Assembly (NCBI GenBank): GCA_038049695.1
Contig: CP142452.1
Coordinates: 74,718,501 to 74,782,500, forward strand
DNA length: 64,000 nt
DNA from: Cinnamomum chago
Lineage: Eukaryota > Streptophyta > Magnoliopsida > Laurales > Lauraceae
Direction of reading: 5' to 3'
This document shows, piece after piece, positions 2,505 through 59,960 of this stretch. The notes beneath the pieces are model-generated. The model worked only from the letters and a program-made list of their open reading frames with translations. It was not told the origin of the DNA and searched no databases. A program made the position numbers and the translations under genes. Numbering within the stretch: the first letter of the stretch is position 1; each line of letters opens with the position of its first letter.

Positions 2505-17810
<15,306 letters not shown>

Positions 17811-20540: not shown

Positions 20541-22110
20541 TTCGCTTGATTGATTTAATGGTGAATAAATTTTACTTCCAACATATTGGCTCTAATATTT
20601 GTTGTCTTTATGTTAAAACTATTTGTCTTTATTCACGGATTAACATGTTGTCGGAAAATGCAGGTATTTGTATTTATAAAAGCCTTAATTTTGTGGTTAT
20701 CCCAAATGTTAGCTCAATTCATGCATGCATCTTATCATCATCGATAAATCTGAGGGTTTGGATTTAACCTACGTGGGATCAAGTGGCTTCACAAACCAAG
20801 CCTCTTACAACTCAAAAAGACTTGCAACGAGTTAATGCTTAGACTTATTTTGGGACATAGCCTTAACAATAGATTGCCTCGTCTAATTGAGGCTCTAAAA
20901 GGGTCTATGTTCGGTTCGTTCCATCGGATACCAAACTCTGCCTTTTAACTAGCATGTATTTTGGTGAGACATGATGGACCCAATGGACTTAGACCTAAAT
21001 CATTTTTGTAATTCTTATTATTATTAGTATTAAAAATATTTAAATTAATGTTATTCAAGTAATAATGCAAATCTTATATAAGGGTCAAGTGAGACTCTCT
21101 TTTTGGGGAGGTTTCAAGTACAAAAGGGTGTACTCTCTTTAGGTACAAAAGCCCTTTTGTACTTGAAACCCCCCCAAAAAGGAGAGTCCCTCACCACACA
21201 TGATAAGAAAATCCCTCACTTGAATATTTCCCATATATATAAATATGTGTGTGCGTTTTTTTTTATATATCAATACTAATTCATCCGGTGCACTAGAAGA
21301 TCAAAGACCCACCTTCAACAGGAACCACAAAAATTACTTTCTTCTCGTGGTATTGCAAAGAGTCGTAATGCATTCAACCTAACAATCACCCTTGTTCCAT
21401 TTTTAGCAACTGCAATTGTCACCCATAGCTAATAAATTTTAGTTGTGTTATTTTAGTTGCGTTATTTTAGTTGTGTTATCCAAATTTTTAAATCAAGCAT
21501 CACATGTTTACCCTAATATTTGTTGCTTTTATGTTACAACTATTTATTTGTAGGATCAATGAGCTGTCATATAATGAATATATTTGTGCTTATAGAAGCT
21601 TTAATTTTGTGGTTATCTTAAATATCAGTTTAATTTATGTTGGCATCTTATCATCGTTCAATTAATTGCCAATCCCTCAGTGAGAGATAAATTACTCTAC
21701 TTGAGTCCATATCACCTGTCGAAGTTGTTATACCTTCACCGTGAGTATAGCAATAACAGTCCGCCACGTCAGGTGAATTTAAGGTTTAAAAAATTTAAAT
21801 AAGGAGAAAGTAGATTTTTTTTATCCCATCTTCTTAATTTATAGCCAACAATCATCATCCCACTCCCTGTGGGTGTGTATGATGAATTGCCACCAAATCT
21901 AATTTCATATTCATCATGACTATCTTCACTATTTGGGTTCCCTCACCATTTTTAAACTATAAAGTCTTAGGGAGAGAGCGGTGTGAAAGATATATCATTA
22001 TTTCATATCTTTTGTGATGAGATTTAGTGGATCCTGTATCCAAGCATAGCCTTATCCATTCCCCATACTTTCTATATATATTATAAGTATTTCAGTAATT
22101 CATCACATGT
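20541..22110 (+). repeat. Inter-unit spacer shared by the MBD units
   Basis: This matches spacer preceding the other units. A segment with taatatttgttg(t)ctttatgtta and ttaattttgtggttatc occurs at about 20590-20720 and again at 21510-21640, and is alike at 36410-36620. A segment with gagttaatgcttagactta ... gacccaatggacttagacc (20830-20990) is alike at 36670-36850 and 41890-42080. So the whole spacer, not only the genes, was duplicated. Confidence 0.65.
21089..21194. repeat. Long near-perfect hairpin
   Basis: Two arms of about 42 nt face each other across a loop of about 23 nt. The left arm contains GGTTTCAAGTACAAAAGGG and the right arm CCCTTTTGTACTTGAAACC. Only a few positions in the outer arms differ. 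It could be a foldback MITE or a source of hairpin small RNA. No coding function is suggested. Confidence 0.85.
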
Positions 22111-25100
22111 ATAAGACCGGTGACTCACATCTAACATGAAAAGCTTACCTAAAATGGATGGCTAAGATGCTGTCTATTACAAAATCACCGGTCTTGATCA
22201 TTCTCTGTGCCTTCAAGGTGTACAAAACCTTTTCTATTAGATTCATATACAAAAATAGTTAATCTATGGGTGCTGGAAAATCCGTATCCTTATCTTTTAG
22301 TACTAAACCTCATAAGGTTCCCTAACGCAATTAATTAAATTGATACCCCTTACCATATTTAGCAATGGAAACTTATCACCTACACGGTTAGAGCACCCCT
22401 CCTCGTCAATACCCCATTTTTAGCAATGACAACTCATCACTGCCAGTGACTCACATCTAACATGAAAGCTTACCTAAAATGGATGGCTAAGATGCTGTCT
22501 ATTACAAAATCACCGGTCTTGATCATTCTCCGTGTCTTCAAGGTGTACAAAATCTTTTCTATTAGATTCATATACAAAAATAGTTAATCAATGGGTGCTG
22601 GAAAATCCATATCCTTATCTTCTAGTACTAAACCTCATGGTGTCTGAACGCAATTAATTAAATTGACACCCCTTTCCATATTTAGCAATGGAAACTTATC
22701 ACCTACAGGGATAGTCCGCCTCCTCCTAGTCATTCATGCTATTTTTAGCAATGACAACTCATCACTGCCAATGACTCACATCTAACATGTAAGCATACCT
22801 AAAATGGATAGCTAAGATGTTGTCTATTACAAAGTCAACGGTCTTGATCATTCTCCGTGTCTTTAAGGTGAACAAAATCTTTTCTATTAGATTCATATAC
22901 AAAAATAGTTAATCAATGGGTGCTGGAAAATCCGTATCCTTATCTTCTAGTACTAAACCTCATAAGGTGCCTGAACGCAATTAATTAAATTGACACCCCT
23001 TTTCATATTTAGCAATGGAAACTTATCACCTACAAGGATAGTGGGCCCCCTTCCTAGTCATTCACACTATTTTTAGCAATGACAACTTATCAGTGCCGGT
23101 GACTCACATCTAACATGAAAGCTTACCTAAGATGGATGGCTAAGATGCTGTCTATTACAAACTCAACGGTCTTCATCATTCTCCGTGTCTTCAAGGTGTA
23201 CAAAATCTTTTCTATTAGATTCATATACAAAAATAGTTAATCGATGGGTGCTGGAAAATCCTTATCCTTATCTTCTAGTACTAAACCGCATGGTGTCTGA
23301 ACGCAATTAATTAAATTGACACCCCTTTCCATATTTAGCAATGGAAACTTATCACCTACACGGATAGTGCGCCCCCTCCTAGTCATTCACACTATTTTTA
23401 GCAATGACAACTTATCACTGCCAGTGACTCACATCTAACATGAAAGCTTACCTAAAATGGATGGCTAAGATGCTGTCTATTACAAAATCAACGGTCTTGA
23501 TCATTCTCCGTGTCTTCAAGGTGTACAAAATCTTTTCTATTAGATTCATATACAAAAATAGTTAATCGATGGGTGCTGGAAAATCCTTATCCTTATCTTC
23601 TAGTACTAAACCGCATGGTGTCTAAACGTAATTAATTAAATTGAGACCCCTTTCCATATTTAGCAATGGAAACTTATCACCTACACGGATAGTGCACCCC
23701 CTCCTAGTCATTCACACTATTTTTAGCAATGACAACTTATCACTGCCAGTGACTCACATCTAACATGAAAGCTTACCTAAAATGGATGGCTAAGATGATG
23801 TCTATTACAAAATCAACGGTCTTGATCATTCTCCGTGTCTTCAAGGTGTACAAAATCTTTTCTATTAGATTCATATACAAAAATAGTTAATCGATGGGTG
23901 CTGGAAAATCCTTATCCTTATCTTCTAGTACTAAACCGCATTGTGTCTGAATGCAATTAATTAAATTGACACCCCTTTCCATATTTAGCAATGGAAACTT
24001 ATCACCTACACGGATAGTGCGCCCCCTCCTAGTCATTCACACTATTTTTAGCAATGACAACTTATCACTGCCAGTGACTCACATCTAACATGAAAGCTTA
24101 CCTAAAATGGATGGCTAAGATGCTGTCTATTACAAAATCAACGGTCTTGATCATTCTCCGTGTCTTCAAGGTGTACAAAATCTTTTCTATTAGATTCATA
24201 TACAAAAATAGTTAATCGATGGGTGCTGGAAAATCCTTATCCTTATCTTCTAGTACTAAACCGCATGGTGTCTAAACGTAATTAATTAAATTGAGACCCC
24301 TTTCCATATTTAGCAATGGAAACTTATCACCTACACGGATAGTGCACCCCCTCCTAGTCATTCACACTATTTTTAGCAATGACAACTTATCACTACCAGT
24401 GACTCACATCTAACATGAAAGCTTACCTAAAATGGATGGCTAAGATGATGTCTATTACAAAATCAACGGTCTTGATCATTCTCCGTGTCTTCAAGGTGTA
24501 CAAAATCTTTTCTATTAGATTCATATACAAAAATAGTTAATCGATGGGTGCTGGAAAATCCTTATCCTTATCTTCTAGTACTAAACCGCATTGTGTCTGA
24601 ATGCAATTAATTAAATTGACACCCCTTTCCATATTTAGCAATGGAAACTTATCACCTACACGGATAGTGCGCCCCTTCCTAGTCATTCACACTATTTTTA
24701 GCAATGACAACTTATCACTGCCAGTGACTCACATCTAACATGAAAGCTTACCTAAAATGGATGGCTAAGATGTTGTTTATTACAAAATCAACGGTCTTAA
24801 TCATTCTCCGTGTCTTCAAGGTGACAAAATCTTTTCTATTAGATTCAAATACAAAATAGTTAATCAATGGGTGCTGGAAAATCTGTATCCTTATCTTCTA
24901 GTACTAAACCTCATGGTGTTTGAACGCAATTAACTAAATTGACACCCCTTTCCATATTTAGCAATTGAAACTTATCACCTACAGGGATAGTGCGCCTCCT
25001 CCTAGTCATTCACACTATTTTTAGCAATGACAACTTATCACTGCCAATGAGTCACATCTAACATGAAAGCTTACTTAAAATGGATGGCTAAGATACTGTC

Positions 25101-25464
25101 TATTACAAAATCAACGGTCTTGATCATTCTCCGTGTCTTCAAGGTGTACAAAAACTTTTCTATTAGATTCATTTACAAAAATAGTTAATCGATGGGTGCT
25201 GGAAAATCTGTATCCTTATCTTCTAGTACCAAACCTCATGGTGTTTAAACGCAATTAATTAAATTGACACCCCTTTCCATATTTAGCAATGGAAACTTAT
25301 TACCTACAGGGATAGTGCGCTCCCCTCTTAGTCATTGCGCCCCCCTCTAGTCATTCACACTATTTTTAGCAATGACAACTTATCAGTGCCAGTGACTCAC
25401 ATCTAACATGAAAGCTTACCTAAAATAGATGGCTAAGACGTTGTCTATTACAAAATCAACGGTC
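22111..25464 (+). repeat. Satellite-like tandem array, unit about 325 bp, left block
   Basis: The anchor gactcacatctaacatg (allowing one mismatch) starts at 22122, 22448, 22773, 23101, 23425, 23751, 24075, 24401, 24725, 25049 and 25394. Spacing is 324-328 bp, with 345 for the last. Each unit also holds gatggctaagatg, gtgtacaaaatcttttctat, ccttatcttctagtact and ccatatttagcaatgg. The same words occur once or twice in the 5' flank of each MBD unit, so the array is an amplified gene-flank segment. Units 23425-24074 and 24075-24724 share alternating variants (ctaaacgtaatt / ctgaatgcaatt) and look like a recent 650-bp dimer duplication. Confidence 0.95.
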
Positions 25465-27274: not shown

Positions 27275-28030
27275 CACTCTCCATGTCTTTGAGGTGTACA
27301 CAATCTTTTCTATTAGATTCATATACAAAAATAGTTAATCTATGGTGCTGGAAAATCCGTATCCTTATCTTCTAGTACTAAACCTCGTAAACCTAAAATG
27401 GATGGCTAAGATGTTGTCTATTACAAAATCAACGGTCTTGATAATCCTCTGTGGCTTTGAGGTGTACAAAATCTTTTTTGTTAGGTTCATATACAAAAAT
27501 AGTTAATATATGGGTGCTGGAAAATCCGTATCCTTATCTTTTAGTACTAAACCTCATAACGTGTCTGAACGTAATTAATTAAATTGACACCCCTTTCCAT
27601 TTTTAGCAATGGAGACTTATCACCTATAGGGTTAGTGAGCCCCCTCGTCATTCCTACTTTTTTTTTTTTTAGGAATGACTACTCTTTACCGCCAGTGACT
27701 CACATCTAATATGAAAGCTTACCTAAAATGGATGGCTAAGATGTTGACTATTACAAAATCAACGGTCTTGATCATTCTCCGTATCTTTGAGGTGTACAAA
27801 ATCTTGTCTATTAGATTCATATACAAAAATAGTTAATCCATGGGTGCTGGAAAATCCATATCCTTATCTTCTAGTATTAAACCTCATAAGGTGTCTGAAC
27901 GCAATTAATTAAATTGACACCCCTTTCCATATTTAGCAATGGAGACTTATCACCTATAGGGTTAGTGAGCCCACTCCTTGTCATTCCCTCTTGTTTTTTT
28001 TTTAGCAATGACAACTCATCAGTGACAACT
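27275..28030 (+). repeat. Satellite array, right block
   Basis: This continues the 325-bp array after the solo LTR, with about two further diverged units. Anchors are at about 27697 (gactcacatctaatatg), with gatggctaagatg at about 27402 and 27736. The last unit merges into the 5' flank of MBD unit U2, which shows where the unit sequence came from. Confidence 0.9.
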
Positions 28031-28261: not shown

Positions 28262-28501
28262 TTGACTTGTTGGCATACAAGGCTTCTCTCCTATCCAATG
28301 ACCCACAGCCAATATCCTTCTCATTACCCACAATGGGAGAATCAAGGAGGTAGCAAAAGAAGAAGATGGAAGAGGAGCAAGAGGAATTCTGGTTGGATGA
28401 TGGAGGTCAGAATCCAGATGAAAAGTGCCACTAAGGGCATGAGGCATAGGGTAACTTGGTTGATTGGGTTTTTTTTATTGGTATCTGCTTTTCTTTTCTA
28501 A
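28262..28501 (+). pseudogene. U2 exon 1: degenerate MBD-family exon (first half of the MBD)
   Basis: The 3' part reads SGWMMEVRIQMKSATKGMRHR up to a donor, AGG|gtaact, at 28450. It aligns with EGWTMNVKVRKDGATAGIRDR of U3. Upstream, the paralogues' RRGRKKKTEEE(E) block is present out of frame (caaaagaagaagatggaagagg). The frame that carries the MBD half is open from an ATG at 28262 but has lost the normal N-terminal residues. It is preceded by the conserved 5' flank. It ends in phase 0, like all exon 1 copies here. It is either a relic or the first exon of a rearranged chimeric gene. Confidence 0.7.
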
Positions 28502-30164
28502 CACATGTAGTTTCAAATAGAAGAAATGTAGAGTTAGATATGGATTCTACTTTCTAATTTATTTTTTATATGTAGTATCATTTTCTTTTATTTTCAAGTT
28601 CATTTCCTTTTCCTAAACCAATATTAAGAATTTTCAAGTTCATGTTCTTTAATATTAGCAACTTTACTCTCTTCTTTCTGAGAAATTTTCTGCTTATGGT
28701 GTTTTTAGTTTTAGTTTTTTAGATTTATTTGAGTTTGTGGCATTTAGAATAGGCTCAAATTTTGCTCCAGCTATAGTTATATTTTATGAAATTATAATCT
28801 AACATGAGGAGACTCCTAGAGCCCAATAATTAATTAAAACTTCAAGCAGCTCAAAATAAAAGCCTTCTAAATATATGGGGCATCCTCAATTTTACCCCAT
28901 TAGGAGTTCATCCTACGTTAAGATTGATTTTTTCATTCTCGGGTAAAGCTTGGGGATGCTCCTACACTATGGAGGTGGCTTTGTTTTGAGGGGCTCAGAT
29001 TTTTAATAGGTGATCCCATAATGGAGTTCTACTAATTTAAATCAACATTTCTCTAAGTCAAAGCTTAAGAGGAACTAGACTCATCATGGATTCCGATCAA
29101 AGGTGGGATCCACACCAGTCAAAAACCTTGAACCAAAAAAGGTTTAAAGTGACTAGTGACTACCATTAGGCCACTCATGTGTTTCCGGTTGGATGTTGAA
29201 ATTCCAGCTCATCTTCCCTCTTTCCAGTGATAGACTTGCATCTTAGTGGGCTCTACTAGCTGGAGTTGGACTTCCATATGAGCAATGTGCTATCTGCTGG
29301 CGAAATAAATGCTACAAAGGCCTCAAATTGAGCTAGATTTGGAACTTACTCTTAATTTCTCTTTGACCTATTGATTTTCAGCCCATATCTAGATATTTTG
29401 GTTTTGAAAATTTGGGACTTCTTCTAGATCTAGTGAATTTGAGCCTAAATCTTAGTTTCTCAGTTTCTCGTAGATCTAGTTTCTCTTATTGTACCCTCTT
29501 AAGGTTAATGTTATGTAGTTTTCCATGAAGTTCATTATTGTAACTTGCAGGTAGTGGCTTTGATTCAGATCACTAAGAAATTGACTCACTCGGATGGCCA
29601 TTTAGATTTTGAGGCTTAAAACCTAAAGCTATGATTTTCTATGACAATGATATTTAGTTCATCCATGACTCTGAGTCAGCTCAATCCATTTTCTCAACTT
29701 TTAATTTTTATGCATCTAAAGCGGACCTTAAAGCTTGAGCTTATCTTGACATTTTTTTTAGTTGGATTATCCTGATAGATTGTAGTCTATCCCTAGAATA
29801 GAAAAAAAAAGTAATCTTTTTTTAAACATTTTTTAAACAAATGTGTAAGGGTGAAATAAAAATGTGATGCAATGAAATGCATCAGGGCAATGATTTTTTC
29901 CATTCAATAAAAGACAATTGTTTTAATCTGCTCAACAATTTCTTATTCACCATGAACTTTTGCTTTCTTTAATGAGACAGTATTAACTTTGATGAAATTA
30001 AACAGACCCCCTCTTTTACATAGAAGACATTTTCTTAAGAGGACACAGACTCATGTTTCAAGACCATGGTCATATATCATAGAATTTACTTTGGTTGAAC
30101 CTAGCCTACTATAGGACTCGTTTAGTAGAACTCACACTCACAAGCAAGGTCTATACTCATGCAG
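28502..30164 (+). other. U2 intron 1, left part
   Basis: The start matches intron 1 of U1 (gcaactttactctcttctttct at 28659 and at 18448). It contains a MITE at about 28807-29036. From 29040 to 30150 nothing coding or repeated was recognised. It ends with the acceptor tcatgcag before the demethylase-like exons. Confidence 0.55.
28807..29036. mobile_element. Small MITE with inverted ends of about 50 bp
   Basis: The left end (ggagactcc...attaaaacttcaagcagctcaaaat) and the right end (ttttgaggggctcagatttttaataggtgat...ggagttctact) are imperfect reverse complements. The same design, longer, occurs at about 44858-45211. The target duplication could not be read safely, so the superfamily is open. 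Confidence 0.55.
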
Positions 30165-31241
30165 TGCGAACCTATTATTGAAGAGCCGGCAACACCAGAA
30201 CCAGAGTGCTTAGACACTTTGGAAAGTGCAATTGAGGATGCTTTCTGGACAGAAGATCCTGATGAAATTCCAATGATCAAACCAAATATTAAAGAGTTCA
30301 TGCAGAATGTAGAGAATTACATGCAAGAAAAGGGTGAACTCCAAGATGTTGATATGTCTGGGGCTTTAGTTGCTCTAACTCAAGAAGCTGCCACTACCCC
30401 TATGCCCAAGCTGAAGAATGTCAGTCGTCTACGAACAGAGCATCAAGTGTAAGTATTTTCCTACCTTCCTCATATTGGCATTAACATTTATAATGAAGTA
30501 TTTAACATAGAATATACATAGGAAAACCATTACCACATGGAAGCATTGAAATATTATTATCAGCTTAGGTGCTCATTCTCATTATTAAATTGAGCCCATG
30601 TGATATTATTTCTCATTGTACAATAATCATTTTGTTCTCCTCACTGCAGGTATGAACTTCCAAATGCACACCCTCTCCTTGCAAAGGTTAGCCGCTCTCC
30701 AACCATATATTTAAGCAAGAATCTTAAGCTAATATCTACTCAAAACCCTTTAGGTGGGTTAAGGATTAATGATTATACACTTAGATTTTTGTTTGCAATC
30801 TTATCATTACAGTTGGACAGAAGAGAGCTTGACGATCCATGTACATATCTTCTTACTGTATGGACACCAGGTATGCGCAAGCATTAAAGATTATATATAG
30901 CTATATGCACTTCAAAATATTGTTCTGTATCTGCTACTTAATAACACATGGCATTTGATGACAGGTGAAACGGCACAATCCATTCAACCACCTGAAATTG
31001 ATTGCACCTCCCAAAAGTCTGGTAATCTATGCAGCAAGAAGACATGCTTTACATGTAATAGCATGCGAGAAGCAAATGCACAAGCAGTCAAAAGAACGCT
31101 TCTGGTGAGAAACAGCCATGGCTACTATATATGTACGATGTAGGAAAATTTTACTTTACAAGAATTAGATTATATTGACCTCCAAAATATCACCATTGGA
31201 CAGACTTTCCACTCAATGGCACTTGTTTTCAAGTTACTGAG
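30165..31241 (+). pseudogene. DEMETER/ROS1-like DNA glycosylase fragment (permuted CXXC region)
   Basis: Four exons with intact GT-AG sites, 30165-30448, 30650-30686, 30813-30870 and 30965-31104 (519 nt, 173 codons, phase 0 at both ends), encode a segment of the C-terminal half of the plant 5-methylcytosine demethylases. Seen: CEPIIEEPATPEPECLD, EDAFWTEDPDEIP, KLKNVSRLRTEHQV, YELPNAHPLL, DPCTYLLTVWTPGETAQSIQ, and the permuted CXXC motif CTSQKSGNLCSKKTCFTCNS. A fifth exon is partly kept at about 31203-31241 (FPLNGTCFQVTE, start of the RRM-like fold). The HhH-GPD glycosylase and Fe-S parts upstream and the rest downstream are absent. It sits in MBD U2 intron 1. The reading frame inside the four exons is clean, so it is recent or under some constraint. 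Confidence 0.87.
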
Positions 31242-32441
31242 GTAAATTTGCATTCTTGCAAGAAATGATAGAGCTAAGCCTAGAAGCAATTACTACAGAT
31301 GAACATTGAACTCCAATCAAACAGAATCAAACATGAGAAAAGCATTATCAGAATACAGTGTATATAAGAAAATGTCACAAATTGTGAGAAAAAAATTAGA
31401 ATATGTGAAAATGTTACATTTTGATGTTTATTTGCATTCTCAAATAGTGTATAAATATGTATCAAACTTTAAGTGACATGCAAATCTGATGTCTCAGTTT
31501 GAGTATATAGAAACCAAAGTGTTGAATATCATATTTTCTATTATATCGTTCAATCGATTAGTTGAGATCAACTAATATAGAAGTCAAAAGCATGTAATTT
31601 ATGTTATTGGTAGCAACTCGGTTGAACCATTGGCTATAATGCATATATCACTCTTATTCTTAAAGAAGGGGAACATTTCTAAACAAGAAAAGGTATCAAT
31701 TCATATTACTTTCCAACCTATATGTGGAAAAGTAAGAAATCTGATAGAACTGGATACTGTAATGGACTAAGTGTAGTAGGATATGTTGCATTGCAATTGC
31801 AGTTTTAACTTTACAAGTATCTCTGCAGGATCTGACTGATGCAAGGGGCCGAAATGAGACCCATTCATAATATAGAAGATAGGCACACAAAGGAACTTGC
31901 TTGAAGCCTTGCTTGCACAAACCCCTACTTAGAGCATTTCTTTTTTCTGTTGCGTTTTTCTTTTTTTGAATCCTTAAAAATAGCCTTTATTGTAGTACTC
32001 AACTAGATATTATTCATTTGCCTGTTGTGTTTTGTCTCCTCTTTATTTTAATTCCAAAAGCATCCTGTAAGCTAAGTATTAATTTATCTTTCCAAGTTTT
32101 TTTAAAATTTATCTTGATTAGTGTTGTTTATTTTCTAATATGTGACATCATCTTATTGCATATGGGATTTTTTTGCTAGTCTTACATTAGAAAATCAATT
32201 AATTAACATTTCAATTTTCTATGTATACTGTAAAAGCAGGGCAGGAAGAATGTAATAACAGTCTATTTAGTACATTACAAAGGGATATAGGAGCATAGCC
32301 AATGTTATTGTGGCCATATTGTAATGATTATTATGTTGGATATGATTAAAACATCATGCCTGGTGGTTGTACTAGTACTTTTTTTTTCTTTCTTTTATAC
32401 ATCTCAGTCATGATTAATGGGCTTTTTAATGAATATCTCAT
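31242..32441 (+). other. U2 intron 1, right part
   Basis: Nothing coding was seen up to about 31950. From about 31950 the sequence matches 58210-58700 (aaaaatagcctttattgta, gtaagctaagtattaattta, tgtgacatcatcttattgca), the left side of a duplicated block shared with U5. Confidence 0.6.
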
Positions 32442-33410
32442 ATGGTGCAGATATATATATGGGAAATTCTAAAAAACGCAGCACTTAAAAAACGCCCCAT
32501 TTTCTACTTCAGCCATGCCTCCACCCCACTCGCTGGTGGAGGATCAAGAGATAGAGACCCGAAGAAGTTGCGCAACCCAAACCAGAGTCGGAAGAAGGCT
32601 GAAGGGCCGCTGGGTTCCAAAAACAAGCCCAAGCCACCCATCTACATGACCCACGAATTTGACTACACCACACATACCACCATGATCGAGATCCCCCCAG
32701 ACGGCGACATCGTCAAGGGTGTCGCCGACTTTGCCTTCCGCCGCCGCATCGGAATCTGCATCCTAAGTTGCAACGACGCTGTCGTAAACGTCTCCTTCAC
32801 CGACTTCGCCTCCTCCCATTCCCATGCATCAACCGTCACGCTGAATGGACATTTTGAAACCCTCTCCCTATTTGCCTTCTTTCTCGCCTGCCCTATTCCG
32901 CCGCCACCGTTGCAATCCTCCTCTCCGGGCTCTCCAACGAAGTTGCCAATCACCATTAATCTCGCAGGAGCTAACGAACAGGTGATTGGAGGGAAAGTGG
33001 TCGAAGCGTTGATTGTCGTTGGCCATGTTGTCGTGGTGGCAGCGTCTTCTAGGTACATATCTTTACTCCGTCTGCAGCCGGTGAGTGAAAAAGCCAACGA
33101 TACAAATCCTAACGTTGGCGTCGCCAATGCCTGCTATGGCGATGCCGGTTTACGGCGCCCCAACTCCAAACACCATCAATCGCCAGCTTCCTTCATCGAA
33201 AATGCTTTGGTTGTGCAGTACTATTTCTATGATGCTAGGAGTGGCCATCAATTCCGATCAAAGAAAGAGGTTGACAGCTTCGCCCGTTGTGGGGATGTCG
33301 GTTTGCGGCGCCCCAGCTCCAAACACCAGCAATCACCAGCTTCCTTCATCGAAAATGCCTTGGTTGTGCAGCACTATTTCTATGATGCTAGGAGTGGCCA
33401 TCAATTCTGA
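32442..33410 (+). CDS. AHL (PPC/DUF296) domain reading into MBD modules; 322-codon chimera
   Basis: One uninterrupted frame joins two protein families. Residues about 55-200 match the plant AT-hook AHL family: GSKNKPKPPIYMTHEF, DGDIVKGVADFAFRRRIGIC, ILSCNDAVVNVSF, TVTLNGHFETLSL, PITINLAGANEQVIGGKVVE, ALIVVGHVVVVAASS. The family forms are GSKNKPKPPI(I/F)VT, LHGRFEILSLSG, YLAGGQGQVVGGSVVG and VVIMAASF. The AT-hook core RGRP before GSKNK is not kept (EGPLGSKNK). Residues about 235-322 hold two copies of a module with the second half of an MBD (VVQYYFYDARSGHQFRSKKEV), the second ending at a stop. AHL proteins bind AT-rich DNA and trimerise through PPC. MBD proteins read methyl-CpG. Whether it is expressed is unknown. 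It may be an AHL retrocopy captured in MBD intron 1 just before exon 2. Confidence 0.7.
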   Translation: MVQIYIWEILKNAALKKRPIFYFSHASTPLAGGGSRDRDPKKLRNPNQSRKKAEGPLGSKNKPKPPIYMTHEFDYTTHTTMIEIPPDGDIVKGVADFAFRRRIGICILSCNDAVVNVSFTDFASSHSHASTVTLNGHFETLSLFAFFLACPIPPPPLQSSSPGSPTKLPITINLAGANEQVIGGKVVEALIVVGHVVVVAASSRYISLLRLQPVSEKANDTNPNVGVANACYGDAGLRRPNSKHHQSPASFIENALVVQYYFYDARSGHQFRSKKEVDSFARCGDVGLRRPSSKHQQSPASFIENALVVQHYFYDARSGHQF

Positions 33411-33752
33411 TAAAAAAAAGAGGTTGACAGCTTCGCTGGCAGTGGCGATGCCGGTTTACGGTGCCCCAGCTCCGAACACCATCAATCGCCAGCTGCCTTC
33501 ATCGAAAATGCCTTGGTTTTACAGTACTATTTCTATGATGCTAGGAGTGGCCATCAATTTCGATCAAAGAAAGAGGTTGACAGCTTTGCCTGTTGTGGCG
33601 ATGCCGGTTTATGGCGCCCCAGCTCCAAACACCATCAATCGCCAGCTTCCTTCATCGAAAATGCCTTGGTTGTGCAGTACTATTTCTATGATGCTAGGAG
33701 TGGCCATCAATTCCGATCAAAGAAAGAGGTTGACAGCTTCGCCTAGATGGGA
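33141..33752 (+). repeat. Four exact-length 153-bp (51-codon) tandem repeats of an AHL-MBD junction module
   Basis: Units start at gatgccg/gatgtcg: 33141, 33294, 33447 and 33600, each 153 bp and so frame-neutral. Each encodes GDAGLRRPNSKHHQSPASFI (AHL-tail-derived), ENALVVQ, then YYFYDARSGHQFRSKKEVDS. Units 1, 3 and 4 keep the MBD segment open. Unit 2 has a stop just after SGHQF. The paralogue U5 has a single unit, so amplification followed the U2/U5 duplication. Confidence 0.93.
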
Positions 33753-34111
33753 GAGGTTCCAAGATACAAACCCAAAAGCTGTAAGTGAAGAATCCAATGT
33801 TTTACATACAATGAGTTCACCTCCAACTCTTATTTACCTCAGCAAGCAGTTGCCAAGTTTCAAGAGTAAGTTCATTTCATTTTTCTCATTCATCACAATT
33901 AAAATATGTATTCCAGGTTGTACTCTTGAGAGCTCTCTGTATCACTTATTCTCACTACTGGTTTTCAGGTCGTGGTAGAAGTAATCAGCAACCTGTTCCT
34001 TCTAACATTGATGATGGGTGGGAAACAGTGTTTGATCTTGACACAGAAAAGGCAACAAGAAGAAGACATCAAGCTGAAATAGACAGAAAAAAATCGTCAT
34101 ATAATGTATGC
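33663..34111 (+). pseudogene. U2 MBD-family exons 2 (end), 3 and 4
   Basis: After the last module the frame meets a TAG where U3 has CAG (U3: KFIQIGEVPRYKPKPK; here SFA*MGEVPRYKPK). U5 has the same TAG. The text continues SEESNVLHT and SSPPTLIYLSKQLPSFK to a donor at about 33868 (gtaagt). The next exon starts after ttttcag at 33968 and reads SRGRSNQQPVPSNIDDGWET, FDLDTEKATRRRHQAEIDRK. It therefore keeps the gene's 3' exons although the frame is closed in exon 2. Confidence 0.7.
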
Positions 34112-36148: not shown

Positions 36149-38037
36149 ACCCTCAAATGATTGCACTGTCCATTTTATTGGCCTCCCACCCCTGTAAAAA
36201 TATAAATAAAATAACACCGTTGTCGTTGCATAGAAGCTCTTCCATAATGCACGTTAAAGATCTATGAATAGGCTAGGTATATGCAAAACAAATATGCCAT
36301 TTGATTATCATAGCTCTTGAGCTAAGGTTCTCAATTTTCAACCTTCGGATTCATATGTTAAGTATGATTGATCCAAAGGAAATTAGATTTTAAACCCACG
36401 GTTGCATATTTGCTCAAATATGTGTTGTTTTTATGTTAAAATTAGATATCGCTATCCACGTGCAATGAGCTGTCATATAATGGATGTATCTATATACATT
36501 TTTTTTTTTAGTAATCTAGTCAAGGGGGGGATGTATCTATACTTATAAAAACATAATTTCATGGTTAACCCAATTTTTTTGTTCAATTTATGCATGGCAT
36601 CTTTCATTGTCAATAAATATGATATGAGACAAATGGCCGCACCGGGCAAGCCTCTAACAACTGGAAAAAATCTCGAGGAATTAATGCTTACACTTAATTT
36701 GGGACATAACCATATTTATAGATTGCTTCATTTTAAGGTTGAAAAATGTCTAGGGCCAATGTCCGGGTTATCGTGCCTATCAAATACCAATGCCAGCTTT
36801 TAATTACCATATATTTTTGCCTGGACCTGATGATCCAATGGACTTAATCTATATCATTTACTTGATTATTATTATTATTATTATTATTGTTATTATTATT
36901 ATTATTAAATATATAAAAATTATGGGAGAAAGCCTTTTTGCTTATCGTATATACATATATTGGTAACTTTATTCACTTGAGCGTCAATACAGAAAGAACT
37001 TTATGAGAGAGAGCCTCTATGTGGCCCAGTTCTGAACCCATCCTCCCTATTTATAGCCAGTTACCAACTCTATTCCCACCTAGTGTGCATGCAGAAGTCT
37101 GCCAACACTAACTTCACATCAATTTAGACTATCTTCAACTTTGGGTTTCACCGAGCAAATTTTTAGACTCACTCATAATGGATGGCTAGGATGTTGGTTA
37201 TTATCAAATTTGGTCTTGATCCGTCTTTGTTCCATGAAGGCTTACAGATTTAGTTGCAAAAAATTCATGAAAAGGATAAACAAATCCACAAGTAATGGTA
37301 GTATGTATCAATATCCTCCAATCCTGAACTTGCATAGAGTCCAAATGCATTTGACCTAACTAACATCCTCTCTCCATTTTTTGCGACTACAATCCAATAC
37401 CCATAGTTAAAAGGTTCCCCTCCTTGTCACCACTGGATTTCACACGTCAAATTTAATTTTGGGGAGAGGGTGGTGTGGAAAATATCTCGATTGTCTGATT
37501 TCCTTTGAATATTAAATTTAGTGGACCCTCTATCCATGCATAGCAGTTTTCCTTCCCCTTAGCTTTTTAAATATTGAATTGATTATACTAATTCATCATA
37601 TGTATAAGATCAATGGCTCACATCCAACATGAAAATTCACTCAAAAAGGATGGCTAAGAAGTCAACTATTAATAAATCAATGGCTCTAATCCTTCTCCGT
37701 GTCTCCTAGGTGGACAAAATCTTTTGTACTGGATGCATGTGCAAGAATAGTTAATTTACAGGCAACAAAAAATCTGTATCCGTATCCTACAATACTAAAC
37801 TTCGTAGAGAATCCAAATGCAAGTAATCCAATTAAGATCCTTTTCATATTTAACAATGCCAACTTATCACCATAGGTTAATGCACCCCTCAGTTATTCCC
37901 ATTTTTAGCAATCACAACTCATTATATATAGATGTCTGCTGGATGAGAATCGCCATCTCAACTTAAAAGAGCACCTTCCTATGTCTCTCTACATCAAAGC
38001 TCTATAGAAACTTTATCGTTCTTCTTCTTCTTCTTCT
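36149..38037 (+). repeat. Spacer and 5' flank of U3
   Basis: It contains a (TTA)n microsatellite at 36862-36905. It then holds a flank block (36950-37930) that is nearly the same as 60840-62470 apart from a MITE in the latter, and similar to 42130-43080 before U4. The stretch 37610-37930 is a single copy of the sequence that forms the 325-bp array. A (CTT)n run at 38020-38038 leads into exon 1. This shared flank presumably carries the promoter. Confidence 0.65.
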
Positions 38038-41100: not shown

Positions 41101-43180
41101 GTGACCGTGAGTGGACACACTTAGAGGATCCCGATTCAATTCAGACGATTGCATCATCCAATTTCTGTGCCTTGGGGTGTTAGGAAAGGTGTAAAGAAAA
41201 TGTCTAGTCTAGAGTCCAGAACACCGTCTAATTGGGCCATTTGATTATTGTAGGCTTTATTTTCAAAGCTTCAAAGTTAGATAATATTTAGCCTCTGGAA
41301 GTCCGAATTGCAGGACTGCAGGTCTAGGTACCCTGTGGGCTCAACCCGAATCTCACCTGGTTTTACAACTTTGCTTTGAGCGGTTATACAGTTGAGTTTT
41401 GGTTCTATGGGCTTAAACAAGCCCTCTTTTCTAGCTTGGTAACTGAATCAGTCAGGTATGGGCCAGCGCTTTCAAAGAGCAAAGTAGATGGCCCAGCCCA
41501 ACCTGACAAATTAATGCAAACAAATCTTATCTTATACTAATTGGGTTTGGCAATTCACTTGCTGGTGGATGGATCCTTATTTTAGGACATTGCCATATCT
41601 ATTAGAGGGCCTCAACTAATTAATTGTTAAAGGTTTGGGTCCACATACAGGTCGCATCTATGGGATACCCGGACCCATTGGACTTCACACAAGTGGGATG
41701 AGGAAGCCCACAAAGTTAGGCTAGAAGACGACATAAGAAGGAAAATGAGATCCCACTAAGTGGGAACAAAAGCCCACTCAACTAGGAAGAAGAGCTCACA
41801 CAAGTGGAAAAGTAGCACGCCCAGGGATCAACCCTAGAGCAACCAGGTGACAAGTGGGGTGCCAACCGACCGAGCAACCCCTATTGTCCTCAAGGAGTTA
41901 ATGCCTACACTTAATTTAGGAGACAACCATATCTATAGATTGCCTCATTTTAATTTTTAAGGCTATACAATGTCTGGGGCCAATGCCCAAGCATCATGCC
42001 AATCGGATACCTAGGCCTGCTTTTAATTAAAATTTATTTCTCATGGACTTGATGATCCAATGGACTTAGACCTAGATAATTTACTTGTTTATTATTGTTA
42101 ATATATATATATATATATATATGGGAGAGAGCCTCTGTGCATATGGTATATACATACATCTATTGGTAAATCTATTCATCTAAGCATCAATACTCAAAAG
42201 AACTTTACAGGAGATGGCCTCTGCGGCTCAATATTTATGATCTCATCCTCCCTGTTCATAGCCAACTACCACCACCATTCCAACCTGGTGTGCATGCGGC
42301 AATGCCACCTATATTAACTTCATATCGATCTAGACTATCTTCAATGTTGGATTTCACCAAGCAAAATTTTAAACACACTCATAATGGATGCCATTAATGT
42401 TGGTTCTTTCCAAACTTGGTCTCGTTCCCACCCAACACCCGATGCATATAGATTTCTTTGTAATAAATTCATGAACAAGAAAAGCAAATCCACAAGTATG
42501 TATCAATACCATCCAATCCAAAACTAAACTTGCAAAGTGTGCAAATTAATGCATTTCCTTTTTGTCTATTTTTAGCAACCACATGCAAGCCGTCGCCCAT
42601 GCATAGTTAAAAGGTGTCTCTCGTTGTCACAACTGGACTTCACACATCAAATCTAATTTTGGGGAGAGGATGGACTGGAAAATATGTCAATCATCACATC
42701 TCCTTTGAATATAATATTTAGTGGAACCCCCCCTTTTATATATAGCAATTCATCAAATGTGTGATATCATGAACAGCTCACATCCAACATGAAAACTCAC
42801 TCAAAAAGGAAGGCTAAAATGTCAACTATTACCAAACCAATCGTTTTGATCCTTCTCCACGCCCCCTAGGCGTACAAAATCTTTTGTATTGTATTCATGT
42901 GCTAGGATAGTTAATCTATGGGTAATGGAGAATCTGTATCTTTATCCTCTATTAATAAACCTTTTAAATAGTCCAAATGCAAGTAATCCAATTGAAACCC
43001 CTTTTCATATTTAGCAATGCCAACGTATCACCCATAGCCACAAGTTAATGAACCCCTCCTAGTCATTTCCATTTTTAGACATCACGACTCATCATTTATA
43101 GATGTCTGCTGAATGAGAAACACCACCTCAACTTAAAAAGCACCTTTCTTCTTCTTCTTCTTCGGTACGTAATAGCAAAA
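41101..43180 (+). repeat. Spacer and 5' flank of U4
   Basis: The part 41890-43100 is paralogous to 36670-38000: gagttaatgcctacactta, a microsatellite (TA)n at 42103-42121, caccaagcaaaattttaaac, then one copy of the 325-bp unit-like sequence at about 42776-43090. The part 41640-41885 is GC-richer, with repeats of the words cccac and agtggg. It is not present in the U3 flank. No gene was recognised. Confidence 0.55.
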
Positions 43181-43831
43181 ATGTCTTCTACTTCATCATC
43201 CAACTCATTTGAAGATAATATTTCTCGTGTATTTAACGATCCGGAGCCAATATCATTCTCCTTACTGATGGAGTTGGATTCATTTGCGGAAACCCCCGCG
43301 AGCTTTCAAAGATCCTTGGCACTAGAACCCAATACCACCCCTGATGAAACTAACATAGCTACATTGGCTGAAGCTATGAGTGAAGAAGCTTTAGAAGTAG
43401 CTAAGGAAGAATGCCAATCCAACATCCCTGAAATGCCATTTCAAACCCCCAATGAAACTAACATAGCTACATTGGCAGGAGCCATGGTTGAAGAAGCTTT
43501 AGAAACAGCCGAGGAAGAATGCCAATCCAACATTCTTGAAATGCCATCTGAAACCGCCAATGAAACTAACATAGCTGCATTGGCTGCAGCAGGTGAAGAA
43601 GCTGTAGAAGTAGCAGCGGCAGAAGAACACCAATCCATCATTCCTGCAATGCCATCTAGAGTGAACACTACTCTATCGCTCACAACGGCAGGATCTAAGA
43701 GGGGGCGTAAGAAGAAAACTAAGGAGGAGCAGGAAGAGTTATATTCTCAAAGGCCAAATTGGCTGCTGGAAGGCTGGAGAATGGAAGTCAAAGTCCGAAA
43801 GGATGCTGCCACTTCAAGCATAAGAGATCGG
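43181..43831 (+). CDS. U4: MBD-family exon 1 with three acidic 36-residue repeats
   Basis: The start ATG at 43181 follows a (CTT)n leader. The 217 codons run without a break to the donor CGG|gtaagt and end in phase 0. Residues 1-50 are Ser/Asp-rich. Residues 53-88, 89-124 and 125-160 are three imperfect repeats (TPDETNIATLAEAMSEEALE... CQSNIPEMP). Residues 171-185 hold a basic patch GSKRGRKKKTKEE (NLS-like, RGRK resembling an AT hook). Residues 191-217 are the first half of an MBD (RPNWLLEGWRMEVKVRKDAA TSSIRDR). Exon 2, with the MBD hairpin, is not found before the next repeat block at about 45240. The gene is therefore 3'-truncated or its second exon lies beyond the copia element. It is the best-preserved N-terminus of the cluster. 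Confidence 0.78.
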
Positions 43832-46099
43832 GTAAGTTGGTGTTTTTTATTAATTTTTTTTTAATTATATGGATATGTGGGATTTAGAATTGAAGGTTGG
43901 ATTTATATAAGATATTTGTTGTTGGGTTTTGCTCGTTGTTTGTTGTTTGATGTCAAATGACAAAAATGAAAGTGACGGGTTGATAAAATTGTAGTTTCAT
44001 ACTATTTCATCGGTTTTACAATCTAGGCATATAATTTACCTAAGTCTGATTGGTGATAATTCAATATTTATAGAACTATATTACTTACTGTGAAGATTTC
44101 AAAGCATCAGGTTGACTAAAATGATAGTTTGATGCATTCAAATTTGTTCTGCAATCTTTGTTTTACAGTATAATTATCTGTTCTTGATTGTTTATATTTA
44201 CTATCTACAGAACTTTTAAAATCTCAGTGCATTTAATCCGTTGATTTTATTATTATTATTTTTTTCACCTGCTTTCTTCCTCTTTGGTGGTAGGTTGAGA
44301 CCAAATCCTTTTATCTCTTGTGTCGACTTGTATACGATTTACATAAAAAGAGAGGGTCAAGTCTTATGTTTAGGGCTAGTCCAGCCACTTATTGATATGT
44401 GTGGGCCCTCATATGGCACCTCTAACTATCCAACATATTCATGTCACACACCTCATTCCATTGTAGGAATTGGCTCAATTTCTACTCCCAGCCACAAATT
44501 GAATGTTCAAATTTTAGTTATGTTTTACAACATGATAATCCTAGTATAAATCGATATCCAGTTTTGTAAGGTAAAAGTAGATCGATGTAGGCGAAGCAAC
44601 AAGCCTGTTTCTTTACTAGAATTCCATGAGTTCATGTTTGGAGAATTTAAAATTGTCCAAAAGTCGTCCCCTTGAGATGGAATTTCAAAATCCTCATCTT
44701 TGTGGAGCATTTGAAATTCCAACATAAAGCAAAGAGATTGGGAATCTAGGAATTTCAAAAGGCCATTTTTAGGCTTGTACAAAGTTGAGCATGTTATGGG
44801 TCGAGTGCAGATCCTCTAAGGCTTTGAATTAGAGAGATCCTCAGTTAAAGGAGTTGGACTATATAGTGGAGCCCACTTATTAAAACCCCAAGCTGCTCAA
44901 GATAAGGGCCCACCCAGTTTATGTGGTATCACCAAACTTTATGTCAATAGTATTTTGTCCCACGGTAAAGATTGATTGTATGATAAGAAAGCGTGATTAA
45001 CACAATGCTTTGAAGAATCAATTTTCATTTTTACTCAATCTTTAAATGTGATTATCATTTTTTAATCAATCAGTCAATCTTTGTGTGGGATTAGCTCCTA
45101 TTGGGAAAATCTTGAAATACACTATATAGTTTTTGAGGTGGAGGGTGGCTTATTTTGAGCGGCTTATATTTTTAATAGGTGAACTCAACTGTGGAGTTCA
45201 ACTCCAATAACTCATGATTTATAGGACTCAAAGCTTCAGATAAGATCAACGACCCACATCCAACATGCAAACTCACTCAAAATGGATGTTTAGGATGTGG
45301 ATATTAGCAAATCAATGATCCACATCCTTCATCACGTCTCTAAGGTGTACAAAATCTTTTGTAGTGGATTCACGTGCAATAATGGTTAATCTACAGGTAA
45401 TGTAGTATCAGTATCCTTATCCTCCATTACTAAATTAATAAAGAATCAAATGGAATTAACCAAATTAATATCCCTTTCCATATTTAGCAATGGAAACTTA
45501 TCACCCACACATTTATACTCATGTCTCTAAAGTATACAAAATCTTTTGTAGTGGATTCGTTTGCAATAATAGTTAATCTTTAGGTAGCAAAAAATTTTGT
45601 GTCCTTATCCTCCATTACTAAACCTCAAAAAGAGTCCATATGCAATTAACCAAATTAATACCCCTTGGTACTCATGTCTCTAAAGTATACAAAATCTTTT
45701 GTAGTGGATTCATTTGCAACAATAGTTAATCTTTAGGTAGCAGAAAATTTTGTATCCTTATACTCCATTACTAACCTAAAAAAGGGTCTGACTGCAATAA
45801 ACCAAATTAATACCCCTTTTCACACACGCGCGCTCTCGCGCGCACACACAACACAGAGATATATAAATATAAATATCATAAGATCAATGACTCACATCTA
45901 ACATGAAAACTCACTCAAGATTGATGGCTAAGTTGTTGTCTATTATAAAATCAATGATCTTGATTTTTCTCCATTTCTTAGGTGTAGAAGATCTTTTCTA
46001 TTAGATGCATATGTAAGAATAGCTAATCTATGGGTGATAGAAAATATGTATCCTTATCTTCTTGTACTAATAATAGTTAATCAATGGGTGATAATAGAT
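43832..46099 (+). other. U4 intron-like sequence and following flank repeats
   Basis: The part 43870-44200 matches intron 1 of U1, U3 and U6. A MITE lies at about 44858-45211. From 45240 onward come two to three diverged copies of the 325-bp flank unit (ttgtagtggattc...taatctttaggtagcaaaaaat, repeated at about 45370, 45550 and 45700), with a CA/CG purine-pyrimidine run at 45820-45850. This is then cut by the copia element at 46104. Confidence 0.6.
44858..45211. mobile_element. MITE with imperfect 49-bp inverted ends
   Basis: The left end GGAGTTGGACTATATAGTGG...CACTTATTAAAA...GCTGCTC pairs with the right end gagcggc...tttttaataggtgaac...ggagttcaactcc. About 354 bp, no ORF. It has the same design as 28807-29036 in U2 intron 1. 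The target duplication is not clear. Confidence 0.62.
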
Positions 46100-49500: not shown

Positions 49501-50946
49501 GCTGCAAAAACACCTTATGAGCTTTGGACAGGCAGAAAACCTAGTCTAAAACATTTTCACATTTGGGGATGTCCTGTTGAGGCAAGGCCTTACAGGCCAC
49601 ATGAAAAGAAACTGGACTCCAAAACTGTGAGCAGCTACTTCATTGGCTACTCTGAGCGATCTAGGGGCTATAAGTTTTATGATCCCACACTTAGGTCAAT
49701 TTTTGAGACGGGAACTGCAACATTTTTTGAGGATGTTGAGTTTAGGGGGAGAAATAAGGTTAGAGACATTGTCTTTGAGGAAGAATCGGTTACGATTCCC
49801 ACTATTGCTTTTGACAATGTGCAGGTTTCTATACCTGTCATTGATCAAGAAGCGAATCCGAATCCTCAACAAGATAATGTTGATCAACCCCCCATTCAAG
49901 ATGAGGAACAAACTCAACAACCTTAAGAACCAGTGCCTTTAAGGCGGTCCACTAGAGAAAGGAGAAATGCTATTTCAGACGATTTTTTCGTATTTCTCCA
50001 AGAACATGAGGAAGAAATTGGAATGGTGGAAAATGATCCAATCAACTTCCATCAAGCCATACAAAGTTCTAACTCTCAAAAGTGGATTGATGCCATGAAT
50101 GAGGAGTATAAGTCTATGCAAGACAATAAGGTTTGGGAACTTGTCCCATTACCAGAAGGTGCGAAGCCCATTGGTTGCAAATGGATTTTTAAAACCAAAA
50201 GGGATTCAAATGGTAATGTGGAGAGGTATAAGGCTCGTCTTGTAGCTAAAGGCTTTACCCAAAAGGAAGGGATTGACTTTAAAGAGACTTTCTCTCCGGT
50301 TTCATCGAAAGACTCTTTTAGGACAATCATGGCACTAGTTGCACATTTTGATCTTGAGCTTCGTCAAATGGATGTCAAAACAACATTTCTCAATGGTGAC
50401 ATTGACGAAACAATTTATATGGTGCAGCCAGAAAACTTTGAGTCGGGAGACCCAAAGAATATGGTCTGTAAATTGACAAAGTCCATCTATGGACTCAAGC
50501 AAGCTTCTCGTCAGTGGTATCACAAGTTTCATCAAGTGATTATCTCGTTTGGTTTTGAGAGAAACGCTGTTGATAATTGTGTGTATCACAAATTCAGTGG
50601 GAGTAAGCACATATTCCTGGTTTTGTATGTCGATGACATATTGCTTGCCACAAATGATATAGGCATGTTGCATGAAACCAAGAGATTTATATCAAAGAAT
50701 TTTGAGATGAAAGATCTTGGTGACGCCTCTTTTGTATTAGGGATCCTGATACAACGAGATCGCTCTCGGGGTATTCTTGGATTATCACAAAGAAGCTATA
50801 TTGATAAAGTGCTCAAAAGGTTTGGCATGCAGGACAGCAAACCTAGTGACACCCCTGTCTCTAAGGGAGACAAGCTTAGTCTCAACCAATGCCCTAAAAC
50901 TAACCTTGAAGTTAAGGAAATGTAGAGGATTCCTTATGCATCAGCT

Positions 50947-52706: not shown

Positions 52707-53803
52707 GAGTCTAATGTATGCTATGGTGTGTACGCGTCCGGATATTGCGTATATTGTTGGTATATTAGGCAGATATTTAAGCAATCCAGGGATGGATCAT
52801 TGGAAAGCAGCCAAGCGGGTTATGAGGTATTTATAGAGAACAAAAGATCATATGCTCACATATAGGAGATCGGATCAGTTGGAGATCATAGGGTATTCCG
52901 ACTCCGATTATGCTGGATGCCAACACAGTCTAAAATCCACATCAGGCTACATCTACCTGTTAGCTGGTGGAGCTATATCTTGGAGGAGTGCCAAACAGAT
53001 ACTCGTGATTGATTCCACTATGGCAGCAGAGTTTGTAGCATGCTATGAGGCATCCAACCATGGAATATGGTTGCGAAATTTTGTCACTGGACTGCGAGTT
53101 CTGGAGGGTATTGAAAGACCACTCAAACTATATTGTGACAATAAATCAGCAGTGCTATATTCCAACAACAACAGGAGCTCAATTAGGTCAAAACATATTG
53201 CCATTAAGTTCCTAGTTGTGAAGGAAAGAATGCAGGATGGATAGATATCCATAGAGCACATTGGGACAAACTCCATGATAGCGGATCCGCTTACAAAGGG
53301 ATTACCACCCAAGGTCTTTCATGAGCACACTGCTCATATGGGTGTTATTTTGTGTGAGGATATCACATTCTAGTGGGAGTTTGTATGATTTTATATTTTA
53401 TTGCTTTATGTTTGATTTTGAACACACTTATGCATTTATGTATTTGGATATTATTCTGATCAGAAATACAGTATTCGGTTCATTTTACTCTGTTACATTG
53501 TGTTAAACATTGATCTCACTAAGGAATACAGTAGGACCAGTTGGAAATAGACATGTATAGATCACATTGCATGTACTTTCCATGCTACGCATCCATGATT
53601 GATCTATGTCATTTGGTTATATTGGTGTACGTGACCATTTATGGGTTTAGTCATGTTGAAAGTGACGAAGACCGCTTTGATCCTATACCGGCATAATCAA
53701 TGGACGAGATTGTTCGGATATATCCTAAATTATGATAGCAAACTTTTGGAGCTCATACAGTCATACACATTTGTTAAGTTATACATATGGCCCAGTGGGA
53801 GAT

Positions 53804-58209: not shown

Positions 58210-58769
58210 AAGTTTTATTTTTTTAATCATTAAAAATAGCCTTTATTGTAATATTCAACTAAATATTATTCAGTTACCTACTTTTTTTTGTCTCTTCTGT
58301 TTATTGTCTCTTTTTTTTTAATTCTAAAAAAATCCTGTAAGCTAAGTATTAATTTATTTTTCCAAGTTTTTTTAAATTTATCTTTACTAGTGTTGTTTAT
58401 TTTCTAATATGTGACATCATCTTATTGCATGTGATTTTCTTTTTGCTAGTCTTACGTTAGAAAATCAATTAACTAACATTTCAATTTTCGTTTTATATTT
58501 TAAAAGAAGGAAGAATGTAATAATATTCTATATAGTACATTACAAGGGGATATAGGTGCATTGCCAATGCTATTGTGACCATATTGTAATGATTATTTTG
58601 CTGGATATTATTAAAACATCATGTCTAGTGGTTGTACTAGTACTTTTTATCTTTTATACATCTCTGTCATGATCAATGAGCTTTTTAATGATAATCATGT
58701 GGTGCAGATATATATATAGGAAATTCTAAAAAACGCTCCACTTAAAGAATGCCCCCTTTTTTGCTTCAA

Positions 58770-59478
58770 CCATGCCTCCACCCCACCCGCTGGCGGAGGA
58801 TCAAGAGGTAGAGACCCGAAGCGGCAGCACAACCCAAACCAGAGCCAGGAAAAGGCCGAAAGGCCGCTCGTGGGCTCCAAAAACAAGCCCAAGACACCCA
58901 TCTACATGACCCGTGAATCCAACTGCACCAGGCAGACCGCTGTGATTGAGATCCCCCCCGGCGGCGACATTGTCAAGGGAGTCGCTGTCTTCGTCTTCCG
59001 CTGCCGCATCGGAATTTGCATCCTCAGCTGCATTGGCGTCGTCGCAAATGTTTCCTTCATCCACTCCACCTTCTCCCATGCCCATGCATCGACCCCCACA
59101 CTGAATGGGCGTTTTGAAACCCTCTTTCTTTCTACCACCTTTCTCACATGCCCTATTTCGCCATCACCGTCGCAATCCTCCTCCTCGAGGTTTTCAACGA
59201 AGTTGCTTATCACCATTACTCTCGCGGGAGCTAACGGATAGGTGATTGGAGGGAAAGTGGCCGGAGCATTGATTGCCACTGGCCTTGTCGTTGTGCTGGC
59301 CGCATCTTTTAAGTATATATCTTTACTTCGTCTGCAGCCAGCAAGAGAAGAAACCAACAATACAAATCCTAACATCGGCGCCGCCAATGCTGGTAGTGGC
59401 GATGCCTGTTTACGGCCGCCCAGCTCCGAACATCATGAATCACCACCTTCCTTCATGGAAAATATCTTGGCTATGCAG
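58770..59478 (+). pseudogene. U5 AHL (PPC/DUF296) domain
   Basis: The same AHL segment as in U2: VGSKNKPKTPIYMTRESN, IEIPPGGDIVKGVAVFVFRC, RIGICILSCIGVVANVSF, TPTLNGRFETLFL, LLITITLAGANG, stop, VIGGKVAGALIATGLVVVLA. The stop falls where U2 and the family have Q (GANEQVIGG in U2). Afterwards the frame is open through NTNPNIGAANAGSGDA into the MBD exon. LNGRFETL and NPNIGAANAGSG are closer to normal AHL text than U2. The AT-hook core is missing here too. Confidence 0.75.
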
Positions 59479-59960
59479 TACTATTACTATGATGCTAGGA
59501 GTGGCCATCGATTCCGATCAAAGAAAGAGGTTGACAGCTTCACCTAGATGGGAGAGGTTCCAAGATACAAACCCAAGACCTAAAAGCGAAGAATCCAATG
59601 TTTTACATACAAAATGAGTTCACCTCCAACTCTTAATCATGTCAGCAAGCACTTGCCAAGTTTCAAGTGTAAGTTCATTTCATTTTTCTCATTCATCGCT
59701 ATTGAAATATGTATTCCAGGGTGTAGTCTTGAGAGCTCTCTACATCACTTGTTCTCACTTCTGGTTCTCAGGTTGTGGTTGAAGTAATCAACATTCCGTT
59801 AGATCTTGAGACAGAAAAGGCAACAGGAAGAAGACATCAAGCTGAAATAGACAGAAAAAATGGCTTTATGATGTATCCATTTGTACTGATTAAGGCTTTA
59901 ATTTCACGGTTACCGCACATGTTTGTTCAATTTATTCACGATATCCTATCGTCGTCAAAA
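59479..59960 (+). pseudogene. U5 MBD-family exons 2, 3 and 4
   Basis: YYYYDARSGHRFRSKKEVDS follows directly on the AHL frame at an acceptor-like atgcag. The TAG shared with U2 comes next, then MGEVPRYKPRPKSEESNVLH. Exon 3 text (SPPTLNHVSKHLPSFK) and a donor gtgtaag at about 59669 follow. Exon 4 after ttctcag (59771) is shortened relative to U2 (LDLETEKATGRRHQAEIDRK). The frame is closed in exon 2, so this is a relic. Confidence 0.7.

Follow-up and report, generated by a model that had tools for sequence, protein, structure and literature searches.

An open frame joining an AHL PPC domain to half of a methyl-CpG-binding domain in Cinnamomum chago is probably a chimeric relic of a tandem MBD gene array

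Introduction

Does the open frame that leads from an AHL-type PPC domain into part of a methyl-CpG-binding domain (MBD) in Cinnamomum chago encode a chimeric protein, or is it the relic of a gene fragment that came to lie within an unrelated gene? The frame occupies positions 32442-33410 on the plus strand of a 64,000-nucleotide stretch of contig CP142452.1, the whole of which we refer to as the window. If the former were true, a PPC oligomerisation module would have been spliced into a methyl-DNA reader, and its expression would make the locus a clear-cut example of a new exon created by insertion of a gene fragment at a splice acceptor. In the available text of the literature searched, there was no report of a fusion of AHL, PPC or DUF296 sequence with an MBD or a methyl-CpG reader. 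All genomic searches described here covered this one genome (1.06 Gb in 14 contigs).

Results

The frame comprises 322 codons plus a stop without interruption, as the original prediction had stated, and extends to 325 codons when read from stop to stop (from 32433). It closes with TGA and then TAA in the second of four tandem 153-bp units, the corresponding codons in the sister units being CGA and CAA. A profile search for the PPC domain, which had been suggested as a check, matched PF03479 to the 322-residue product with a score of 45.2 bits (cut-off 25), and homology to MBD exon 2 follows in frame, so the proposed union of an AHL PPC domain with this exon held up. As to membership of the AHL family, the PPC/DUF296 domain is present and an upstream in-frame AT-hook motif is absent. 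The PPC core motif, given as GRFEIL for AHL proteins in the available part of PMC4209074, reads GHFETL in the window copy and GRFNIL in an intact AHL gene on C11. Searched against solved structures, the 322-residue product gave no match at E <= 1.

The C11 gene is also the closest intact AHL found by protein search outside the C2 cluster described below (C11:51541387, 51.54 Mb; 59% at the amino acid level, compared with 46% for the next-best AHL). Using blastn, the AHL fragment of the window aligned with it (L015 4825-5546) at 76.7% over 722 nt (8e-157), and lacks the start codon, the last 10 codons and the stop of the source. The gene itself (C11:51541276-51542079, L015 4776-5579) is an intact, divergent AHL of 267 codons that carries RKRPRGRP ahead of its PPC domain, the latter scoring 65.8 bits, slightly below one copy of the array (69.1 bits). 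Relative to C11, 4 nt are missing around the AT hook in the window copy (U2) and 1 nt in the other six copies of the cluster, and a further 8 nt are missing from the tail. As a result of these small deletions, the frame passes through AHL DNA out of register with the C11 AHL at residues ~22-56 and ~232-256; across the PPC domain and immediately around it, the AHL register is kept. Loss of the AT-hook core had been noted from the window alone and was borne out, since the 4-nt deletion shifts the frame and turns the site from RKRPRGRPLGSK in the C11 gene into RKKAEGPLGSK in the window copy.

C-terminal to the PPC domain, and in frame with it, the product continues with YYFYDARSGHQFRSKKEVDSFA, which corresponds to the latter half of a plant MBD. 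Exon 2 starts at 33219 on a codon boundary of the open frame, and the donor of the upstream exon 1a, GTAACT at 28451, is in phase 0 (Table 1). The domain profile search returned no MBD match for the chimeric product at E <= 0.1, and PF01429 was matched at E <= 1 neither by exon 2 alone nor by the spliced exons 1a and 2 of the AHL-bearing unit. In control joins, the exons 1 of two plain MBD copies (38.24 and 43.70 kb), with the 38.65-kb copy supplying exon 2 in both cases, matched PF01429 at 4.6e-11 and 1.5e-10, respectively. The contention that only half of each MBD is present therefore agrees with the absence of a complete PF01429 domain from the chimera and with the matches of the control joins, and the failure of the chimera, of exon 2 and of exons 1a and 2 combined to match PF01429 makes the MBD of the window unit look decayed.

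Table 1 Features of the AHL-MBD unit and of its second copy in the window
Feature	Position	Strand	Basis and remarks
3' part of decayed MBD exon 1 (type a)	28349..28450	+	tblastn, context
DME/ROS1-like glycosylase segment (exons and introns) in MBD intron 1	29300..31940	+	coding similarity 30153 to ~31240
Unit sequence upstream of AHL, with candidate acceptor GTGCAG ending at 32450	31943..32506	+	comparison of copies
AHL gene fragment, codons 17-257 of the 267-codon C11 AHL	32507..33210	+	blastn against L015
PPC (PF03479) domain	32679..33047	+	hmmscan 1.4e-11, residues 80-202
Four tandem 153-bp units, each with AHL tail and MBD exon-2 start	33137..33748	+	repeat search, 87-95% pairwise identity
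Junction overlap TTGG (TGG against L016) of AHL and MBD homology	33207..33210	+	ends and starts of matches
First half-MBD, start of MBD exon 2 after CAG (33216-33218)	33219..33284	+	matches exons 2 of AHL-free C11 MBD
MBD exon 3	33983..34105	+	tblastn; homologous to L016/L017 (C11 MBD loci)
Second AHL-MBD copy in the window (U5)	58763..59541	+	stop in PPC breaks frame

Genome-wide, a search for PPC domains identified 37 places, seven of which fall into one cluster on C2 (74.75-75.03 Mb; two in the window), and a protein search returned the same seven AHL-MBD loci. The stretch from the PPC domain through exon 2 is open in two of the seven, U2 and a copy at C2:75008676 (L012), and is broken in the remaining five by a stop (U5, G978 and G1031) or a frameshift (G868 and G909). 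The PPC of the second open copy (C2:75008847-75009506, L012 5347-6006) scores 55 bits, compared with 47.8 for the PPC stretch of the window copy. In a tree with C11 as the outgroup, U2 was sister to the other six copies with 100% support.

We compared U2 with four of its six sisters (G1031, U5, G1008 and G868) and found the PPC part to be 80-84% and the AHL tail 77-82% identical, as opposed to 88-89% for the 5' flank, 91% for the 3' side and 89-94% for the exon-2 part; the PPC part was more diverged than the flanks in all four comparisons. Neutral expectations were obtained from 2000 simulations with rates taken from the flanks, exon 3 and the foreign-frame AHL stretches. The PPC domain carried 65 substitutions, compared with 58.6 expected from the context-specific rates outside it. 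The dN/dS of the AHL part, which the original prediction had put forward as a measure of constraint, fell below 1 (0.48 for the PPC of U2 against the six-sister consensus) but was indistinguishable from neutral (mean 0.66, 95% 0.38-1.10, P = 0.14). Raw dN/dS values ranged from 0.40 to 0.59 for U2 against its six sisters and from 0.48 to 0.72 for the seven copies against C11. Read by themselves, such values might be taken for purifying selection on the fused frame, an interpretation that we rejected because the context-aware neutral mean is 0.66 and pairs among the six sisters, most of them broken, lie at 0.44-0.72.

The persistence of the open frame was assessed in the same manner. Under neutral simulation, the PPC domain would escape a stop with a chance of 0.26, and for the 278 fused codons (3000 simulations) the chance was 0.16 at 61% of the divergence, the tree-based estimate of the share of the U2 branch, and dropped to 0.044 when all of the divergence was placed on that branch. 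The AHL part of U2 contains no stop, no frame-breaking indel and a single 3-nt indel in 758 aligned bases, compared with 14 indels in 1,325 for the flank against G1031. We discarded this scarcity as a signal of selection, given that the sister copies likewise seem indel-poor there (0-2 indels in the AHL part versus 4-9 in the flanks, n = 4 comparisons). Counting against a simple relic, the majority consensus of the six sisters is open from the AHL part into exon 2, so that the fusion may have remained unbroken over some period, and a dN/dS below 1 may reflect weak or past constraint on the fused frame. With five of the seven copies disabled and a neutral-like divergence, the set has the characteristics of a pseudogene family, though U2 itself is open, and the doubt cast on function from the outset appears justified.

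These data bear directly on the possibility that the locus produces a functional, expressed AHL-MBD protein, in which exon 2 would gain the AHL sequence, by exonisation, as a 5' extension through use of an acceptor at 32450 that agrees in phase with exon 1a. A candidate acceptor, GTGCAG at 32445-32450, does lie ahead of the AHL piece (GTGTAG in one of the seven copies), and its AG is kept in all seven. Because exon 1a closes at 28450 in phase 0 and the base after the candidate acceptor falls on a codon boundary of the frame in the window copy, the AHL piece could be exonised in frame there. The PPC domain is still recognisable and two copies remain open as far as exon 2, and the replacement of the AT-rich intron end by AHL sequence would have removed the old acceptor context. 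Against this stand the five broken copies, the neutral-like divergence, the out-of-frame AT hook, the change of GRFEIL to GHFETL, and an MBD reduced to one half behind a decayed exon 1a, and we consider such a protein improbable. Slightly less probable still is a family on C2 with the in-phase order MBD (N-half), AHL PPC and MBD (C-half) that would have arisen through exonisation and of which one or two of the seven copies would still produce the protein.

Within the array, the elements follow the order MBD exon 1a, DME/ROS1-like fragment with introns, AHL piece, exon 2a and exon 3, and the AHL-bearing units are interleaved with plain MBD copies (exons 1b, 2b and 3). The number of units is a lower bound, parts of the array having been read and some units showing only part of the elements. 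The DME/ROS1-like segment matches C11:40.894-40.897 Mb at 84-87% of DNA positions, its part at 31205-31940 matches C4:14.46 Mb, near RRM_DME matches, and we take 30153-31104 to be DME/ROS1 glycosylase sequence. A piece of a demethylase (DME/ROS1-like) is in this way located within a methyl-reader gene, an arrangement also seen in other C2 units.

Several relatives of the unit are free of AHL sequence. The upstream sequence of the unit (positions 31943-32272) recurs at 68% (C2:59.676 Mb) in an AHL-free relative at C2:59.675 Mb, which has exon 2 as well. On C11, exon 1a and exon 2 are found on the same strand at 40904861/40877310 and at 27437551/27473531, 27 and 36 kb apart, respectively, and we infer that each pair represents one unit. 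The first of these pairs has the DME fragment between its exons; neither contains an AHL match among the genome-wide PPC and protein matches, the pairs having been read in part (L016, L017 and L035). The AHL-free relatives on C11 and at C2:59.675 Mb suggest that the AHL insertion is probably later than that of DME and confined to the C2 lineage.

The presence of two unrelated gene fragments, DME and AHL, in one intron would also be in keeping with delivery of the AHL piece by a gene-capturing transposon (Pack-MULE, Helitron or CACTA) whose ends were later lost, and such capture, along with chimeric transcripts, is described for plants in the available part of PMC4274372. However, the AHL piece directly adjoins the MBD acceptor, no end of an element intervening, and the DME fragment also occurs in a C11 unit that gave no AHL match, which makes it unlikely that the two fragments arrived together. 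We rate this route as just as improbable as the expressed protein.

The junction itself lies within MBD intron 1, where AHL homology ends at 33210, 8 nt before exon 2, in agreement with the site originally proposed. Homology to the AHL-free C11 MBD exons begins at 33207 (L017, first two repeats) or 33208 (L016), and the left AHL breakpoint falls between 32273 and 32506. The GC content of the 80 nt preceding exon 2 is 26-30% in AHL-free relatives (n = 2, L017 and L036) compared with 51-54% in the presence of AHL (n = 2, U2 and U5), and, at E <= 1e-5, nothing upstream of exon 2 in the window unit matched the intron end of L016/L017; the AHL piece thus seems to have replaced the intron end. Since every 153-bp unit of the window copy combines an AHL tail with an exon-2 start, it is the junction that was amplified, and the other six AHL-MBD loci have one junction each among the matches listed. 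The second MBD "module" inferred earlier therefore belongs to this 153-bp junction repeat.

The original prediction had tentatively explained the junction by an mRNA-derived AHL retrocopy that landed in MBD intron 1, and the AHL piece is indeed intronless, sense-oriented and far from its source gene. The source gene also has no intron, however, so intron loss cannot be scored. A processed retrocopy is expected to be 3'-complete and to carry poly(A); in the window, AHL homology covers no codon beyond 257 of the 267 and thus misses the last 10 as well as the stop, the 5' end is truncated too, there is no poly(A) between the AHL end and the MBD acceptor, and the joint shows a 3-4 nt overlap as in end joining. 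Without start, last 10 codons, stop and poly(A), the piece is not a typical retrocopy, and we find this origin the least probable of those named so far. A chance open reading frame devoid of homology is ruled out by the strong PPC match.

Discussion

The locus is likely to be a chimeric pseudogene, in which an AHL fragment entered a decayed MBD gene, the unit was duplicated in tandem, and the frame stayed open by chance. This is mainly the fossil side-by-side insertion that the original prediction had offered as its own alternative. In the order of events that we would reconstruct, the 3' end of intron 1 of an ancestral MBD gene that already carried the DME/ROS1-like fragment received a piece of DNA from an intronless AHL gene (codons 17-257). 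The putative repair mechanism would be break-repair-like, with the 3-4 nt overlap at the joint, and would have replaced the AT-rich native intron end, leaving 8-12 nt of native intron before exon 2. Small deletions (4 nt in U2 or 1 nt elsewhere near the AT hook, and 8 nt in the tail) would have put the PPC domain in phase with exon 2. Duplication of the unit to at least seven copies on C2 would account for the cluster, and in the window copy the junction would have gone on to multiply into four 153-bp repeats. Survival by chance would then explain the open frame in the window copy and in one other, with function presumably absent.

Insertions with filler DNA, small deletions, microhomology, gene-fragment capture and chimeric transcripts are all described for plants in the available part of PMC4274372. 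Like plant fragment insertions that arise through double-strand-break repair or transposon capture, the AHL piece is truncated at both ends, has a short overlap at its joint, came with a slight loss of target sequence and can give rise to a chimeric frame; unlike them, it was later amplified in a tandem gene array, where its junction turned into a 153-bp repeat. With Type-I (Clade-A) AHL proteins, the chimera shares the PPC domain and an intronless stretch, and one intact AHL of this genome matches it closely. It differs from them in the absence of an in-frame AT hook and of the AHL start and end, in its altered GRFEIL motif, and in a tail formed by an MBD exon in place of the AHL tail. With plant MBD genes, in which the domain is split over exons 1 and 2, the chimeric unit shares the splice phase and exons 2 and 3, which are homologous to MBD copies at other places in the genome; its exon 1, by contrast, is decayed, and downstream of the AHL part the domain is represented by its second half alone. 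Read as a chimeric relic, the locus exemplifies how fragment insertion and tandem duplication can yield convincing chimeric frames without a clear sign of selection, and calls for caution where genes of large plant genomes are predicted from open frames.

Further features of the window concern the plain MBD copies and the neighbouring sequence. Repeats of ~325 bp occur at 22100-25400, 27290-28000, 37600-37870, 42650-43035, 45240-46060 and 62060-62690; several are located directly upstream of MBD exons 1, they are common to the units and to L016 on C11, and they perhaps represent amplified promoter sequence. Judging from the list of open reading frames, we take 315-977 and 48127-53244 to be coding remnants of Copia-like retrotransposons, and 6400-17800 presumably contains exons resembling the gene for the AP-3 complex beta subunit. 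At 43079-43864, a plain MBD copy has a long, open exon 1 with three internal 108-bp repeats, and this copy is possibly a live gene.
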